Assembly (NCBI GenBank): GCA_013330315.1
Contig: DUIO01000235.1
Span: 1-6,846, forward strand
Reading direction: 5' to 3'
Source of the DNA: Methanosarcina sp.
GTDB lineage: Archaea; Halobacteriota; Methanosarcinia; Methanosarcinales; Methanosarcinaceae
Length of the DNA: 6,846 nucleotides
Every line of letters starts with the position of its first letter. The first letter of the stretch is position 1. A program made the translations under genes and the position numbers. The notes under the pieces were generated by a model. That model made no database searches. It worked only from the letters and a program-made list of their open reading frames with translations, and was not told the origin of the DNA. Shown in pieces: positions 1,720 to 6,763 of this stretch.

Positions 1720-1805
1720 ATTTCCGGCACCTCAGAAGAATGGATGTTCTAAGTGGGGGGATTGTCAGTGTAACATCCGGAGTATAGTTTTACATTTAAT
1801 TGGAT

Positions 1806-1871
1806 ATATTAGTAAGTGAATATTGCGTAAGACTTTTTGACATAATATTAGTGTTTGAATAGTGCATAAGA
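1806..1871 (-). promoter_or_regulatory. Duplicated promoter-like module upstream of the TPR gene
   Basis: Two 27-bp direct copies, 1806-1832 and 1845-1871, match at 22 of 27 positions and start 39 bp apart. Both begin ATATTAGT on the plus strand and share TGAATA, TGC and TAAGA. Read on the minus strand, each copy ends in ACTAATAT, an AT-rich block that could act as a TATA element. The copies lie 87-152 bp upstream of the TPR start. They may be duplicated regulator sites or two alternative promoters; the proposal is inference. Confidence 0.38.
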
Positions 1872-2209
1872 GAGCCAGTATAATATTACAATTATCATAT
1901 AACACTCTATCCCTTTACAACGCAAAATAAAACAGTAATTGGATTGAACGACATCGTTTTCCTAAAAAAATAAATTCTGCAGGATAAAAATCAAGCAAGG
2001 GAAAGCAGAAGAATAATAAAAATAAATATTGGACTATAAAAACATAAAAAATGACACAATGAGCTAGAAGGAAAAATTGAAAATTAAATTAATAAAAATA
2101 CGAATGGAAAAGAAAAGCATATCGAATGATAGTATGGATGAGAGGTGAAAAGAATTAAAAAATTTCGAATAGGGTATAAACCGGAGGTTCAAAAATAATC
2201 TATCAGTAT

Positions 2210-2223
2210 TAAACTATAGTTTA
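2210..2223. promoter_or_regulatory. Perfect 14-bp palindrome
   Basis: TAAACTATAGTTTA is a perfect dyad. It lies in A+T-rich DNA where such palindromes arise fairly easily. It could be an operator, but no certain gene begins nearby. Confidence 0.22.
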
Positions 2224-2260
2224 TTACTTACCTTAGATTAGAGAACAAAGAACAGTTTAC

Positions 2261-2279
2261 AACCTCAAAAATTGAGGTT
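2261..2279. other. Perfect 8-bp stem-loop
   Basis: AACCTCAA (2261-2268) pairs perfectly with TTGAGGTT (2272-2279) around a 3-nt AAA loop. On the minus strand it lies about 130 bp beyond the stop of the possible small ORF at 2408-2560, so it might end that transcript. It could equally be an RNA structure on the plus strand. No U tract follows immediately on either strand. Confidence 0.33.
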
Positions 2280-2407
2280 ATTTAAAAAGAGGATATTAAA
2301 AGTCTCGGAATAATGAAAAAACCACTGAAAATTAAAGAAGATCAGAAAAATACACTGACAATTTTAGCCTTTTTTATATTTCTCGGATACGGATTGAGGA
2401 CTTCCCT

Positions 2408-2560
2408 TCAAGCCAGATACGAAACAATAAGCAGCCCTGCACCAGCTTCTATTGACGTTCCAAGAACTGACCCCATAGCCTGTGAACCCATTTGAGGGCC
2501 AGGGATAAAGCTCCCGAACAATATCTCAACCACTGCCCCAGTTTCGATTCTCGAAGGCAT
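2408..2560 (-). CDS. Possible small Gly-rich hydrophobic protein or gene remnant
   Basis: This 50-codon minus-strand ORF is not recognised as any family. It fills a GC-rich island (about 51% GC over 2401-2580, hand count) inside DNA of 20-30% GC, which suggests present or past coding selection. Its codon positions show GC of about 58, 50 and 42%, a coding-like order, and 20 of 50 codons start with G. The peptide is hydrophobic with regularly placed glycines (residues 8, 16, 21, 25, 30, 34, 40, 42) and could form one or two membrane helices. The ATG at 2558-2560 is the only upstream ATG, and the frame stays open upstream to 2681. The Shine-Dalgarno match (GGAAGG, 3 nt upstream) is poorly spaced. 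A truncated remnant is as likely as an intact gene. The opposite strand also has an open frame here (2313-2495, then a TGA and a further open stretch to 2728). Confidence 0.33.
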   Translation of the reverse strand: MPSRIETGAVVEILFGSFIPGPQMGSQAMGSVLGTSIEAGAGLLIVSYLA

Positions 2561-2578
2561 CCGCCTTCCAGAGGAACA

Positions 2579-2621
2579 CTCTTTTTGCCAGCTGCTCTTT
2601 TTGCCAGCTGCTCTTTTTGCC
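2579..2621. repeat. 16-bp tandem repeat, 2.7 copies
   Basis: CTCTTTTTGCCAGCTG occurs exactly twice (2579-2594 and 2595-2610), followed by a partial third copy (2611-2621). The unit ends in the palindrome CAGCTG. It begins right at the right edge of the GC-rich island and looks like a slippage-type duplication. Confidence 0.85.
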
Positions 2622-2687
2622 CGATTTTTACTTCCTAATCTGTATTTTTCATTTATTTTATTTTTCCTCTGGCCTTTTATTTATCCC

Positions 2688-2711
2688 GTTTCATCTGCTG
2701 TTTCATCTGCT
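2688..2711. repeat. Exact 12-bp tandem duplication
   Basis: GTTTCATCTGCT is present twice back to back (2688-2699 and 2700-2711). It belongs to the T-rich, repeat-prone stretch after the GC island. Confidence 0.8.
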
Positions 2712-2727
2712 TATTCCGTATTTGTTT

Positions 2728-2780
2728 AGTTTGTCTATTTAATCTATTTAGCCAGTTTAGTCTATTTAATTTATTTAATC
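2728..2780. repeat. Imperfect 26/27-bp tandem duplication
   Basis: The segments 2728-2753 and 2754-2780 both run AGTTT, GTCTATTTAA, TATTTA, differing by one inserted base and a few substitutions. A smaller CTATTTAAT-like periodicity lies within them. Confidence 0.65.
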
Positions 2781-3073
2781 TATATTTGTTCCGTTTTGTC
2801 GGTTTACCCGGATCTATTCAGTTTTACTCCCTACTCCAGATTTGAATCATAGATTACCAGGCAATCTGAAGTGAAAACCTGTATTTTTTAAGTGAATATC
2901 TATGTTTTTGAGTAAAATGATACTTGAAGTCAGGGTAAAAATTCTCCAGAAAGGTCTCTTTTATTATGAATCAGGTTCGGAAGAAATATTATCTAAAAAG
3001 GTCCAAAAAAACAATATATGAGAACTATACTCTCCTTATAGTCTGAAAATTTAAAATGAACCTGCTGTATCGG

Positions 3074-3141
3074 CGAAAATTTACCAACGAAATCTACCAA
3101 CGAAATCTGCCACCGACATAAATCCACCGATAAAAATTAAC
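3074..3141. repeat. Five degenerate 13-14-bp tandem units, each starting CGA
   Basis: The units begin at 3074, 3088, 3101, 3114 and 3128. The second and third are nearly identical (CGAAATCTACCAA and CGAAATCTGCCAC). The others keep the CGA start and, except for the last, a CCA-containing end. The array sits 85-152 bp upstream of fxsA and just ahead of a second array. It may be a set of regulator sites or relic slippage. Confidence 0.6.
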
Positions 3142-3150
3142 AGACACCCG

Positions 3151-3204
3151 GTAATTATTAAGTAACATATAAGTAATTATTAAGTAATTATAAGTAATTA
3201 TTAA
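3151..3204. repeat. Five 11-bp tandem units upstream of fxsA
   Basis: The unit GTAATTATTAA is exact at 3151-3161, 3173-3183 and 3194-3204. A variant, GTAACATATAA, sits at 3162-3172 and a 10-bp version at 3184-3193. The period is about one DNA helical turn, so repeated sites would face the same side of the helix. The array ends 21 bp before the fxsA start codon. Confidence 0.8.
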
Positions 3205-3208
3205 TTAC
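3194..3208 (+). promoter_or_regulatory. Possible TATA region for a leaderless fxsA transcript
   Basis: The last 11-bp unit plus its continuation gives TTATTAATTA (3199-3208), centred about 23 bp before the fxsA ATG. No Shine-Dalgarno sequence precedes that ATG. An archaeal TATA box at this distance would place the transcript start at or next to the ATG, which suggests a leaderless mRNA. This is inferred from spacing only. Confidence 0.35.
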
Positions 3209-3225
3209 TCTTAAAACTGATTGCT

Positions 3226-3630
3226 ATGTTTCTTAAACTCTTTTCCCTGTTTTTGATTATTCCCCTTGTGGAGATTTATCTCCTGGTCAGGATAGGGGGT
3301 ATAATCGGAGCTTTGAACACTGTTCTTGTTATTCTGATAACTGCAACCCTCGGAGCTTACCTGACAAAAAGCCAGGGCTTTCGGGTGCTCCGCCAGATCC
3401 AGGACGCAACAAGGCAGGGGTATATGCCAGGAAACGAACTCCTTCACGGCCTTTTTGTATTAATAGGAGGCTTTGCCCTATTGACCCCCGGCTTCCTGAC
3501 CGATGCCATAGGGTTTTCTATGCTTATCCCTCAGGTAAGGGAAGTATATGTAGGAATAGCAAAAGGGATCATAAGAAAAAAAATACAGCAAGGAAACCTT
3601 CAGATGCGAGTGTACACAGATTTCAGGTAA
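3226..3630 (+). CDS. fxsA: FxsA family membrane protein
   Basis: This 134-residue FxsA-family protein matches the usual family core. Hydrophobic segments span about residues 3-21, 26-46 and 72-102. Family hallmarks visible are P13-x-x-E16 in the first helix, G24/G28, the G43-A-Y-L then Q50-G51 stretch, G65-x-x-P68, and the P88-G-F-L-T-D93 motif followed by G96. The C-terminal tail (from K113) is basic and probably cytoplasmic. In E. coli, raised FxsA relieves exclusion of phage T7 by the F plasmid; the biochemical role is unknown, and phage relevance in an archaeon is not implied. There is no Shine-Dalgarno site before the ATG, and the 11-bp repeat array lies immediately upstream. The gene converges on lrgB, with only 11 bp between the stop codons. 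Confidence 0.9.
   Translation: MFLKLFSLFLIIPLVEIYLLVRIGGIIGALNTVLVILITATLGAYLTKSQGFRVLRQIQDATRQGYMPGNELLHGLFVLIGGFALLTPGFLTDAIGFSMLIPQVREVYVGIAKGIIRKKIQQGNLQMRVYTDFR
3576..3583 (-). terminator. U8 tract that may end the lrgAB transcript inside fxsA
   Basis: Eight A on the plus strand read as eight U in a minus-strand transcript, 58 nt beyond the lrgB stop codon. Archaeal RNA polymerase commonly terminates at U tracts. If used, the lrgAB mRNA would overlap the 3' end of fxsA in antisense. No hairpin is associated. Confidence 0.33.
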
Positions 3631-3641
3631 TTCGCAATTCA

Positions 3642-4352
3642 TCAAAATAATATCCCGAACAGGTAAAGCAAGAGCGGGGCCAGAAAAACTGTAATGAGAC
3701 CGGCAATCCCGATCGAAAGCCCGCTCATTGCGCCTTCCGTTTCTCCAAGTTCTATTGCCCGCGTTGTACCGAGAGCATGGGAAGCCGTGCCGATTGCAAC
3801 ACCGATTGCAACACTATCTTTTATGTGGAAAGAGCGGCAAATAAATGGGCCGAGCACAGCCCCTATTATCCCTGTTACCACAATTGCAGCTACCGTTATT
3901 GCAGGCAATCCACCTATCTGTTTTGAAATCTCCACTCCTATCGGGGTGGTCACAGATTTGGGAACAAGAGAATTGGTTATTACCTGGTCAAGCCCAAAAA
4001 GATTTGAGAAAATAAGAATGCTTGAAATGCCGGCAATGCAGCCTGCACTTATACCTGCAATTATGGGGAAGGCATCATTTTTTAGGAGCTGAATTTTTTT
4101 GTAAAGGGGAACAGCAAGGACTACGGTTGCAGGCCCGAGGAAGAAAGAAATATAGTCTCCTCCCAAGTTATAAGTCTCAAAATCTATCCTGAAATACAGG
4201 AGGAAGAGGATCACAAGCACCATACCCACAAGCAGGGGGTTAAAGACGGAAGAACGGGTTTTCTTATAGAAAAAGATGCCTATCTGAAAAGCAGCCATGG
4301 ATAAAAGAACCCCAAAGAGAGGTGTGCTAAGAAACTCGTTCATAAAATTCAT
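3642..4352 (-). CDS. lrgB: LrgB/CidB family membrane protein
   Basis: This 236-residue polytopic membrane protein has the length and layout of LrgB/CidB. Family blocks seen are G73-P-A-T-V-V-L-A-V-P-L-Y84, the P131-K-S-V-T-T-P137 motif, G161-x-x-G164...G168-P169, and the G188-T-A-S-H-A-L-G-T-T-R198 signature. About seven or eight hydrophobic helices are apparent. Known relatives act with LrgA in bacterial cell-lysis control and in uptake of pyruvate or related small acids, and the plant homologue PLGG1 carries glycolate/glycerate. The archaeal substrate is unknown. The gene follows lrgA after 7 nt. Its Shine-Dalgarno GAGGTG (4366-4371) overlaps the end of lrgA, 13 nt before the chosen ATG. 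An ATG three codons later is possible but lies 22 nt from that site. The two genes are almost certainly one operon. Confidence 0.93.
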   Translation of the reverse strand: MNFMNEFLSTPLFGVLLSMAAFQIGIFFYKKTRSSVFNPLLVGMVLVILFLLYFRIDFETYNLGGDYISFFLGPATVVLAVPLYKKIQLLKNDAFPIIAGISAGCIAGISSILIFSNLFGLDQVITNSLVPKSVTTPIGVEISKQIGGLPAITVAAIVVTGIIGAVLGPFICRSFHIKDSVAIGVAIGTASHALGTTRAIELGETEGAMSGLSIGIAGLITVFLAPLLLYLFGILF

Positions 4353-4359
4353 TTGCAGT

Positions 4360-4821
4360 TTAATTCACCTCTTCTACTTTTCTTTCGTTAATCTGAATTT
4401 TTTCATGTGCCTGAACTTCTTTTCTACTCCTTTTGACTTTATCTTTCTTTTCTCCGAAAAAAACCGGATTCATCGACTTTTTTCGGGTGAACCTTTTTAC
4501 AAATTCCACTGTCAGACCCGTAACGCCGAGGATAATTATTGTTGAGAGAATAGAAACCCAGAGAACCTCAGTCAATTTACCTTCAAGCACGGTAAAGCAG
4601 GTTATAAGGCTTACTCCCGCAGGAAGGAAGAAAAAAGCCAGGTTATCAAGAAGAAAATTACTCATCCGGTCTATCATTTCGAGCTTAATTATACCCGTGT
4701 ACAGGCTGATAAAAAGGATTAACATCCCCAGGATATTACCCGGAACAGGCAGCTCGAATGCCTTTTGAAGCAGCTCGCCCAGAAAGTATATGCTGAGAAT
4801 AATTGAGAATTGTTTTAGCAA
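4360..4821 (-). CDS. lrgA: LrgA/CidA family membrane protein with a long basic tail
   Basis: This is the first gene of the lrgA-lrgB operon and the partner membrane subunit. The core (residues 1-108) has four hydrophobic segments, the P25-V-P-G28...G32 motif of LrgA/CidA and the F63-F-F-L-P-A-G-V70 motif. Bacterial relatives are holin-like and oligomerise in the membrane; with LrgB some function in pyruvate uptake. The start is a TTG, chosen because AGGAGG (4833-4838) lies 11 nt upstream, no ATG or GTG occurs in frame near it, and the first internal Met (M33) would delete the first helix. Residues 109-153 form an unusual hydrophilic tail with 15 Lys or Arg in 45 positions, beyond the normal family end. 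The tail is predicted to face the cytoplasm if the positive-inside rule holds. Confidence 0.88.
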   Translation of the reverse strand: MLKQFSIILSIYFLGELLQKAFELPVPGNILGMLILFISLYTGIIKLEMIDRMSNFLLDNLAFFFLPAGVSLITCFTVLEGKLTEVLWVSILSTIIILGVTGLTVEFVKRFTRKKSMNPVFFGEKKDKVKRSRKEVQAHEKIQINERKVEEVN

Positions 4822-5153: not shown

Positions 5154-6344
5154 ATGGGAGAAAACCGATTCGTATACATGGACCATGCAGCTACCACTTT
5201 CATAAAACCGGAAGTGATTGAGACTATGCTGCCTTTTTTGAGAGAGCATTTCGGTAACCCTTCTTCCCTGTACTCAATAGGTAGGGAAGGCAAAGAAGCG
5301 GTAGAAACAGCCCGGGAAAAGCTTGCAAAAGCTCTTGGAGCTAAATCTCAGGAAATTTACTTTACTTCGGGAGGAACGGAATCCGACAACTGGGCCGTTA
5401 AAGGCACCGCTTTTAACAGGCGAAAGAAAGGGAAACACATCATTACGACGCCAATTGAACACCATGCAGTTCTTTACCCCTGCGAATATCTGGAAACGCA
5501 GGGTTTTGACGTAACTTATTTGCCTGTAGATGAATACGGACTTGTAGACCCTGCAGAACTCGAAGCTGCAATAAGAAAAGATACTATTCTGATTTCGGTC
5601 ATGTACGCTAATAATGAAATAGGGACTATCGAGCCCATCCAGGAAATAGGGGAAGTTGCAAAAGAACACGAAATTCCCTTCCATACAGATGCCGTACAGG
5701 CAATAGGCAATATCCCTCTTGACCTTCAGGGAAAGGATAAGGACGTGGATATGCTCTCCCTTTCCTCACATAAATTCTATGGACCAAAAGGGATAGGTGC
5801 ACTCTATATTAGAGAAGGGACAGAAATCGACAGCTATATGCACGGGGGTGCACAGGAGAAAGAAAAGAGAGCTGGAACGGAGAACGTTGCAGGGATTGTA
5901 GGCATGGGAAAAGCAATAGAGCTTGCAACTGCAAACATCGAGGAGCACAGTGAAAAGCTGAAGAAAATGAGGGACAGGCTCAGGGCAGGAATACTTGAGA
6001 TTCCGGAATGCAGACTGAACGGGCATCCGGAGAAACGCCTTCCCGGGAATCTGAACTTTAGTTTCAAATATATAGAAGGGGAGTCTCTGCTGCTCATGCT
6101 TGACCAGATGGGAATCTGCAGTTCTACAGGCAGCGCCTGCTCTTCGGGCTCACTTGACCCTTCACATGTGCTGAATGCGATTGGAGTCCCGCCTGAGATT
6201 TCCCAGGGTTCTCTGCGCCTGACTCTTGGAGATGCAAACTCCGAAGGTGATGTCGATTATGTGCTCGAAGTACTGCCTAAAATTGTAGAGAGACTGAGGG
6301 CTATATCTCCATTTTATAAACCGGCAAGTGTATGCGAAAAATAA
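5154..6344 (+). CDS. iscS: Cysteine desulfurase IscS/NifS, PLP-dependent
   Basis: This enzyme removes sulfur from L-cysteine to give alanine and an enzyme-bound persulfide for Fe-S clusters or thiolation. The 396 residues match the full family length (class V aminotransferase fold). Visible motifs are D10-H-A-A-T-T, G34-N-P-S-S, S72-G-G-T-E-S-D-N79, E102-H-H-A-V with H104 stacking on PLP, N153-N-E-I-G-T, D179-A-V-Q182, S205-H-K207 with the PLP-binding lysine, G231-G-x-Q-E...R-x-G-T-E-N244, and the active cysteine C329 in G-S-A-C-S-S-G. All catalytic residues are present, unlike some archaeal IscS proteins that lack the lysine. The sequence style is closest, from memory, to Clostridia-type NifS. 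A partial Shine-Dalgarno, AGGGTG (5143-5148), lies 5 nt before the ATG. iscU follows after 29 nt, indicating one operon. Confidence 0.96.
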   Translation: MGENRFVYMDHAATTFIKPEVIETMLPFLREHFGNPSSLYSIGREGKEAVETAREKLAKALGAKSQEIYFTSGGTESDNWAVKGTAFNRRKKGKHIITTPIEHHAVLYPCEYLETQGFDVTYLPVDEYGLVDPAELEAAIRKDTILISVMYANNEIGTIEPIQEIGEVAKEHEIPFHTDAVQAIGNIPLDLQGKDKDVDMLSLSSHKFYGPKGIGALYIREGTEIDSYMHGGAQEKEKRAGTENVAGIVGMGKAIELATANIEEHSEKLKKMRDRLRAGILEIPECRLNGHPEKRLPGNLNFSFKYIEGESLLLMLDQMGICSSTGSACSSGSLDPSHVLNAIGVPPEISQGSLRLTLGDANSEGDVDYVLEVLPKIVERLRAISPFYKPASVCEK

Positions 6345-6362
6345 ATAAAAAGTGCATAGTGA

Positions 6363-6369
6363 GAGGGAG
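6363..6369 (+). promoter_or_regulatory. Ribosome binding site that fixes the iscU start
   Basis: GAGGGAG ends 4 nt before the ATG at 6374. This favours that start over the in-frame ATG at 6332, which would overlap iscS and add 14 residues not typical of IscU. IscU proteins commonly begin Met-Tyr, as the shorter form does. Confidence 0.6.
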
Positions 6370-6373
6370 TTTT

Positions 6374-6763
6374 ATGTATAATAAAAAAGTGATGGACCAT
6401 TTTATGAATCCGAGAAACGTGGGGGAAATAGAGAATGCAGACGGCATCGGAGAAGCCGGAAACCCTCACGGTGACCAGATGAAGATTTTCCTCAAAATCC
6501 AGGACAATAAAATTGAGGATGTAAAATTCAAGACATTTGGCTGTGCAGCAGCAATCGCGTCCAGCAGCATGGCAACGGAAATGATAAAAGGAAAGACCCT
6601 TGAGGAAGCCTGGGAACTTACGAACGAAGCAGTAGCTGAAGCGCTTGAAGGGCTTCCACCAGGAAAACTGGAGTGTTCTGTAGTTTCGAGAGAGGCCATT
6701 CACAGGGCAATCAATGATTACCGTAAAAACCAGGGACTTGAACCTCTAGCAGAGCAGATGTGA
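6374..6763 (+). CDS. iscU: IscU/NifU-N type Fe-S scaffold with altered cluster site
   Basis: IscU normally accepts sulfur from IscS and builds a [2Fe-2S] or [4Fe-4S] cluster on three Cys and nearby residues. This 129-residue protein is full length and plainly in the family: M1-Y...V6-M-D-H-F-M-N-P-R14, F52-K-T-F-G-C57, A62-S-S-S, and L94-P-P-x-K98. The cluster site is unusual. The usual P-x-C-G-D reads N30-P31-H32-G33-D34, one residue shorter with His in place of the first Cys. The third-ligand His-Cys pair reads E100-C101. C57, D34 and C101 remain, and G-C-G reads G-C-A at 56-58. The codons are intact, so a frameshift is not the cause. It may bind a cluster through His, bind zinc or another metal, or act only as a sulfur acceptor. 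It is the second gene of the iscS-iscU operon. Confidence 0.92.
   Translation: MYNKKVMDHFMNPRNVGEIENADGIGEAGNPHGDQMKIFLKIQDNKIEDVKFKTFGCAAAIASSSMATEMIKGKTLEEAWELTNEAVAEALEGLPPGKLECSVVSREAIHRAINDYRKNQGLEPLAEQM

Follow-up and report, generated by a model that had tools for sequence, protein, structure and literature searches.

The stretch of DNA considered here (the window) is 6,846 nucleotides long, from contig DUIO01000235.1 of a Methanosarcina sp. assembly (GCA_013330315.1), and carries near its 3' end the gene pair iscS3-iscU3, coding for a cysteine desulfurase, IscS3, and for IscU3, a homologue of the iron-sulfur (Fe-S) cluster scaffold IscU with an altered ligand site. The genes, motifs and codons of this locus, including those for the pyridoxal phosphate (PLP)-binding Lys of IscS3, are as follows:

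5154..6344, + strand: iscS3, cysteine desulfurase of 396 residues (NCBIfam TIGR03402, 610.3 bits; cut-off 530.75)
5772-5774, 5460-5462 and 6138-6140, + strand: IscS3 codons for the PLP Lys207, His103 and the catalytic Cys329
6361..6369, + strand: purine-rich stretch GAGAGGGAG ahead of the iscU start codon, a likely ribosome-binding site judging by sequence only
6374..6763, + strand: iscU3, the P-H-G-D IscU, 129 residues plus stop (Pfam NifU_N PF01592; TIGR03419)
6458..6475, + strand: GNPHGD motif, IscU3 residues 29-34, with the first Cys of P-x-C-G-D missing
6464-6466, 6467-6469, 6470-6472 and 6473-6475: IscU3 codons for Pro31, His32 (CAC), Gly33 and Asp34
6542..6544, + strand: IscU3 Cys57, the second conserved Cys, retained and by homology equivalent to Cys95 of human ISCU2
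6653..6676, + strand: LPPGKLEC, in which Gly97 replaces the Val/Ile of LPPVK, Glu100 replaces His and Cys101 is retained
6671-6673 and 6674-6676: IscU3 codons for Glu100 (GAG) and Cys101, the persulfide acceptor by homology

An earlier note on this DNA had described, between 6464 and 6676, a ligand motif reading P-H-G-D with one residue lost and a Glu100-Cys101 pair in place of His-Cys. Translation and alignment bear this out: the span runs from Pro31 to Cys101, residues 94-102 read LPPGKLECS (translation of 6374-6760), and the missing residue maps to the column of the first Cys (Cys1). Asp34, Cys57 and Cys101 are retained and the partner IscS is complete, again as described; Lys207, His103 and Cys329 are all present in IscS3. 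IscU3 is full-length and matches NifU_N with 151.8 bits (cut-off 22) and TIGR03419 with 220.2 bits (cut-off 187.9), and its IscU fold is predicted to be intact (AlphaFold2 predicted local distance difference test, pLDDT, 94.0). It falls under the cut-off of the iscU model TIGR01999 (131.9 bits; cut-off 192.4), but so does the canonical IscU2 of the same genome (156.1 bits). IscU3 shares the fold, the start, Tyr2, Asp34, Cys57 and Cys101 with the clostridial-type IscU/NifU proteins of TIGR03419, but has neither the first Cys nor the His, and has Gly for the Val/Ile of LPPVK. A published survey (PMC4440780) demanded three cluster Cys residues of IscU homologues, of which IscU3 lacks the first; the survey would have left out Cys-less IscU proteins. 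IscU3 is accordingly a homologue of IscU and not necessarily a cluster scaffold. Two other identities were rejected. A SufU-type, zinc-dependent sulfurtransferase is not supported by the score against TIGR01994 (72.2 bits; cut-off 92.5), and a PLP-less pair of the IscSU1 type is at odds with IscS3, in which the PLP Lys, the His and the catalytic Cys are kept in 12/12 sampled sequences (that of the window included), whereas the five sampled IscS1 proteins all have Thr for the Lys and Asp for the His.

The P-H-G-D motif is not unique to this strain, a possibility that the earlier note had raised against itself. An intact P-H-G-D IscU, with 84-100% identity, is found in 29 of the 30 Methanosarcina genomes, and the motif recurs outside this genus in the same family, in one genome of genus g4 and four of genus g5; across the three genera the copies from 34/34 genomes, which were selected by similarity and not by motif, have GNPHGD. 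We also ran two protein searches against 5.8 billion proteins, in each of which the 8000 best candidates were scored and the best 120 matches listed. Among the 120 best matches listed, all 62 with at least 81% identity have GNPHGD, and the next ones (at most 78% identity) have the Cys. Glu100 is found in 93 of the 94 distinct GNPHGD sequences that were aligned, the remaining one having Asp. The DNA pattern GNPHGDxM[KE], searched in one genome each for 84,980 species, retrieved 21 loci, all iscU (Methanosarcina, 18; Methanosarcinaceae, 1; Euryarchaeota archaeon, 2), a count in which one locus ends at 41 residues and several represent genomes already counted, exact DNA patterns also overlooking motif variants. 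It is the presence of GNPHGD in all of the close matches and all 34 genomes that rules out chance or a base-calling error.

Moreover, the gene is under strong purifying selection. The median omega (ratio of nonsynonymous to synonymous divergence) of the P-H-G-D IscU is 0.042 (33 sequences, 402 pairs), with 0.077 for the partner IscS (28 sequences, 343 pairs) and 0.047 for the canonical IscU2 (22 sequences, 214 pairs); pairs with a synonymous divergence (dS) outside 0.05-3 were excluded, and the dS values approach saturation. In a 34-sequence tree, at least seven synonymous changes fall on the His32 codon and at least six on the Glu100 codon, with no amino-acid change in either. The exception among the 30 Methanosarcina genomes, G024, has only broken remnants of iscS3 and iscU3 and no other iscU match; this genome is near-complete and has SufB/D-family proteins. 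Purifying selection and an intact copy in 29/30 genomes rule out decay, G024 and the iscS3 of genome G002, the frame of which is interrupted by stops, being the exceptions. Relaxed selection on a decaying spare paralogue could still be argued from these two genomes and from the low detection of the protein in the M. acetivorans proteome (PMC7585200, available in part); we find it barely credible, however, in view of the omega value, of site residues that survive synonymous turnover, of retention by nearly all genomes and of the six good genomes, described below, that have no canonical IscU2.

All 29 Methanosarcina genomes with an intact P-H-G-D IscU also encode an IscS of the matching lineage, that of G002 interrupted as said, so that the conserved P-H-G-D clade paired with its own IscS for which the earlier note had proposed a search does exist. 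The specialised, selected role proposed there fits this pairing and the clade-wide conservation; decay does not fit. The two genes are apart in three genomes: G008 encodes IscS3 at a different place, and G016 and G017, which have no iscS upstream of iscU3, encode it on a different contig. In G008, short tandem repeats of approximately CAGGGAGAGGTCTTAG are found upstream of iscU3 (L029), at the place expected for iscS3, and iscS3 is at L181. The note had also supposed that Methanosarcina genomes often have several IscS/IscU pairs, which would free one copy to diverge, and had suggested looking for a second iscU with the usual three Cys. The genome of the window does contain two other iscU genes in which no Cys is missing (C164, GNAKCGD; C308, GSPACGD), but the idea of a spare copy does not hold generally, either in Methanolobus (see below) or in Methanosarcina. 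The canonical IscU2 is present in 21/30 Methanosarcina genomes and absent from seven of the 23 genomes with a completeness of 90% or more; the seventh is G024, and the other six have the P-H-G-D IscU and IscU1 only. In those six genomes IscS3 is the only close full-length Lys-bearing IscS, although distant relatives (about 28-33% identity) occur. SufB/D-family proteins are encoded in 30/30 Methanosarcina genomes and could be receivers from IscU3. IscU1 itself (L003; other loci L097-L103, L109, L110) has about 208 residues, with a C-terminal FeS_assembly_P domain in that of L003, the sole IscU1 scanned.

A second Cys-less lineage is found in the same family. A small Cys-less IscU is present in 26/27 genomes of Methanolobus (g11), the remaining genome having a weak match only, and in 6/6 genomes of g12 (Methanomethylovorans, assigned by sequence); where a second iscU match is listed for Methanolobus, its frame length is that of the long IscU1 type. 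The motifs of these proteins are GSTVDGD/GSTIDGD or GNPADGD (hereafter D-G-D), and Arg, Lys, Asp or Asn precedes the last Cys; that is, Cys1 is changed to Asp, the His mostly to Arg or Asp, and LPP[VI]K mostly to LPxGK. Among the top 120 matches of a profile search, 71 are Cys-less and of this kind, 48 have the Cys and one is an unreadable fragment. The D-G-D DNA pattern is found in 21 of 392 genomes of the phylum, only in Methanolobus and Methanomethylovorans. In a 117-sequence tree the P-H-G-D (34) and D-G-D (21) proteins, classes defined by motif prior to tree building, form separate clades, each with 100/99 support in a tree of 56 of these sequences made after removal of the motif columns. 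Under the same removal, the approximately unbiased (AU) test rejects a single clade of both (p-AU 0.0022), which excludes one shared origin, and the partner IscS proteins (45 sequences) have the same split. As judged from these sequences, the same two ligands have been lost twice independently within the family. The sister group of the P-H-G-D clade is left unresolved by the 56-sequence tree. We also noted that TIGR03419, a scaffold equivalog, scores above its cut-off in 3/3 P-H-G-D proteins scanned and not in 2/2 D-G-D ones; automatic naming thus conceals the missing ligands of the former.

The changes at the site are coupled. We aligned 343 distinct sequences, consisting of the loci and of those database matches, out of 240, that have 115-160 residues, after removal of duplicated loci, of fragmentary sequences and of the remnant in G024; the set represents top matches and not a census. 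Wherever Cys1 is present so is the His (153/153), and where Cys1 is absent the His is never found (0/190). Asp34 and Cys57 are invariant (343/343 each) and Cys101 nearly so (342/343). Gly97 follows the same division, being found in 94/94 P-H-G-D proteins, in 82/95 D-G-D proteins (the other 13 have Asp) and in P0190, a further sequence without Cys1, but in 0/153 of the sequences with Cys1. Thus Cys1, the His and the valine of LPPVK were lost together, twice.

Two ways of reading the altered site preserve a cluster on IscU3. In one, Cys1 is substituted by His32, or by Asp in the D-G-D proteins, and a [2Fe-2S] or [4Fe-4S] cluster would be held by two Cys and His, Asp or Glu. The retention of His32 through synonymous turnover and the intact predicted fold are in line with this scaffold of altered ligands, and the Cys1 column is occupied by His in P0177, a D-G-D protein of an uncultured Methanomethylovorans, so that nitrogen or oxygen ligands may be favored there. 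However, the usual His is itself replaced by Glu100, the D-G-D lineage has Arg, an improbable ligand, before the last Cys in 62/95 sequences, and all three Cys are described as indispensable to the bridging [2Fe-2S] cluster (PMC8617193); on balance we regard this reading as unlikely. His32 need not have been selected as a ligand to arise: from the sequences, a single in-frame deletion of three bases converting CARTGY (Gln-Cys) to CAY (His) is a plausible origin, and the canonical IscU of g10 (L082-L084) has CCC CAG TGC GG at this site, where the loss of three bases from CAGTGC would yield CAC. In the other reading the cluster is shared, being built and held by Cys57 and Cys101 of IscU3 together with the catalytic Cys of IscS3, in the manner of the IscS-IscU complex of A. 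fulgidus (4eb5), the closest solved structure. A. fulgidus IscU, however, has all three Cys and uses its own Cys1 as a ligand. In the archaeal complex that bore a cluster, the IscU was a D35A mutant, and the IscS of A. fulgidus reportedly has no desulfurase activity, whereas IscS3 has all the catalytic residues; a shared cluster seems quite unlikely to us.

We consider it an even chance, from the analysis as a whole, that IscU3 accepts persulfide sulfur from its partner IscS3 at a site that is always open, without any need of frataxin. In human ISCU2, His137 obstructs the approach of the two Cys residues, and frataxin displaces both His137 and Cys69 (PMC11021402, available in part). In the same source, with frataxin present, three variants, C69S and H137A among them, had 70-101% of wild-type persulfidation. 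In accordance with a review (PMC8924461, also available in part), holding Cys35 and His103 (mouse numbering) off the metal constitutes the two critical features of frataxin action. By sequence comparison, the archaeal proteins retain the three residues that persulfide transfer in human ISCU2 was shown to require and have lost two that it can do without; the two lost ligands are those displaced by frataxin. Matches to frataxin, as well as to the C-terminal domain of HscB, were found in 0/111 genomes of the family, E. coli alone being positive for each among 14 control genomes. The LPPVK change might mean only a lost HscA contact, because there is no HscB match.

In the mechanism that we propose, IscS3 would build a persulfide on Cys329, Fe(II) would be held by Asp34 and Cys57 inside the IscS3-IscU3 complex, as suggested by human ISCU2, and Cys101 would then accept the persulfide from Cys329, with no His obstructing and no Cys1 to shift. 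Frataxin-bound human ISCU2, with Fe on the Asp and the middle Cys, the last Cys free and the other ligands out (PMC11021402), is likely alike; in IscU3, however, the two ligands are deleted or replaced genetically, and the genomes of the family yielded no frataxin gene. Least certain is what follows. A bridging [2Fe-2S] cluster is stated to require all three Cys (PMC8617193), making stable cluster storage by IscU3 unlikely; with two Cys it would not store the standard three-Cys cluster and might pass on sulfide and Fe, or else a transient cluster that IscS or another IscU molecule perhaps helps to hold. The broader proposition, that IscU3 is a naturally occurring IscU fixed in the state that frataxin otherwise brings about, ready to accept sulfur, the ligands that frataxin displaces having been cut out twice in methanogens devoid of frataxin, is put forward tentatively, and we judge it to be somewhat short of an even chance.

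Several observations weigh against an open, frataxin-free acceptor. The C69S and H137A variants were assayed singly and with frataxin present, and the double loss was not shown, in the part of PMC11021402 available, to bypass frataxin; an older study cited there had C69S abolishing persulfidation, although this is explained in the same source by lost metal. Free mouse or human ISCU requires the lost ligands for binding iron or zinc, and therefore free IscU3 may bind no metal, or bind it weakly. Moreover, IscU2 of M. acetivorans, with both ligands, works without frataxin (PMC7585200), so that the losses cannot be put down to the absence of frataxin alone. In that organism only IscS2 and IscU2 were consistently detected in the proteome, and a strain deleted for iscSU2 had less desulfurase activity and, when cysteine was the sulfur source, less persulfide (PMC7585200); IscSU3 is thus not the main route under those conditions. 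The coupling described above, furthermore, represents two evolutionary events and not 190. G024 has lost its iscSU genes, and therefore the iscSU3 pair is dispensable. Finally, the literature searched yielded no experiment on the Cys-less archaeal IscU proteins.

Frataxin dependence has also been linked to a residue of IscU itself. Met at the position equivalent to E. coli 108 accounts for the frataxin dependence of E. coli IscU, and M. barkeri and M. acetivorans were noted to have an IscU with this Met (PMC4440780). In our alignment this column has Met in 23 sequences of the Cys class, Val in 94/94 P-H-G-D proteins and Gly or Asn in D-G-D proteins. Methanosarcina IscU2 (for example, that of L001) has the Met that makes the E. 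coli protein dependent on frataxin, though the family has no frataxin match.

IscU3 might also act as a pure sulfurtransferase like SufU or SufE, carrying persulfide from IscS3 to SufBC or to enzymes of tRNA or cofactor metabolism with no iron chemistry. The zinc site of SufU, however, employs the first Cys, which is gone in IscU3, the SufU family score is under its cut-off, as given above, and no known sulfur acceptor is present among the neighboring genes scanned; we hold this alternative to be very doubtful. The gene following iscU3 codes for a RimK-family ATP-grasp ligase in 5/5 relatives scanned; those of L113 and L182 also match MptN (NF040720), and those of L114, L183 and L184 were scanned by Pfam only. 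A transglutaminase-like gene and truD follow in L113, the only locus scanned further, and in the two D-G-D loci examined the neighbors of iscSU are genes for SUI1 and Nre. An informative operon was thus rejected, since the RimK, truD, SUI1 and Nre neighbors point to no target.

The M. acetivorans IscU3 (MA3265) and IscS3 (MA3264) are the same gene pair as that of the window, and Table 1 of Deere et al. 2020 (PMC7585200) records H32, D34, C57, C101 and LPPGK for IscU3. The part of that paper available, which concerns work on IscSU2, treats the protein as having Cys replaced by His and mentions neither a missing residue nor Glu100. In the literature searched, the His of IscU3 is reported in PMC7585200 only. 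Five further points were not met there and appear to be new: the His before the last Cys was lost along with Cys1, the altered protein is fixed across the clade, some genomes have no IscU2, there was a second origin, and the lost ligands match those displaced by frataxin. The three Cys are commonly regarded as the hallmark of IscU, and yet IscU3 is fixed throughout the genus and beyond without the first. If IscU3 accepts persulfide without frataxin, evolution would have provided an independent test of how frataxin, the protein deficient in Friedreich's ataxia, is currently believed to act. These small proteins would then separate the sulfur-transfer step from cluster storage, with a bearing on the use of cysteine sulfur by methanogens that lack the canonical IscU2.

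Two further observations concern other genes. At L091 (521-1945, - strand), an IscU is fused to a flavin adenine dinucleotide (FAD)-dependent pyridine nucleotide-disulfide oxidoreductase (NifU_N, residues 2-123; Pyr_redox_2, residues 134-425, in the part scanned), and the fused gene adjoins an IscS with Asp at the column of the PLP Lys; long open frames are also found in G031, G104, G106 and G109, the domains having been scanned in L091 only. Elsewhere in the window are genes for a tetratricopeptide repeat (TPR) protein (532-1719) and for members of the FxsA (3226-3630), LrgB (3642-4352) and LrgA (4360-4821) families, with a long stretch, from about 1740 to 3225, in which no gene is obvious.
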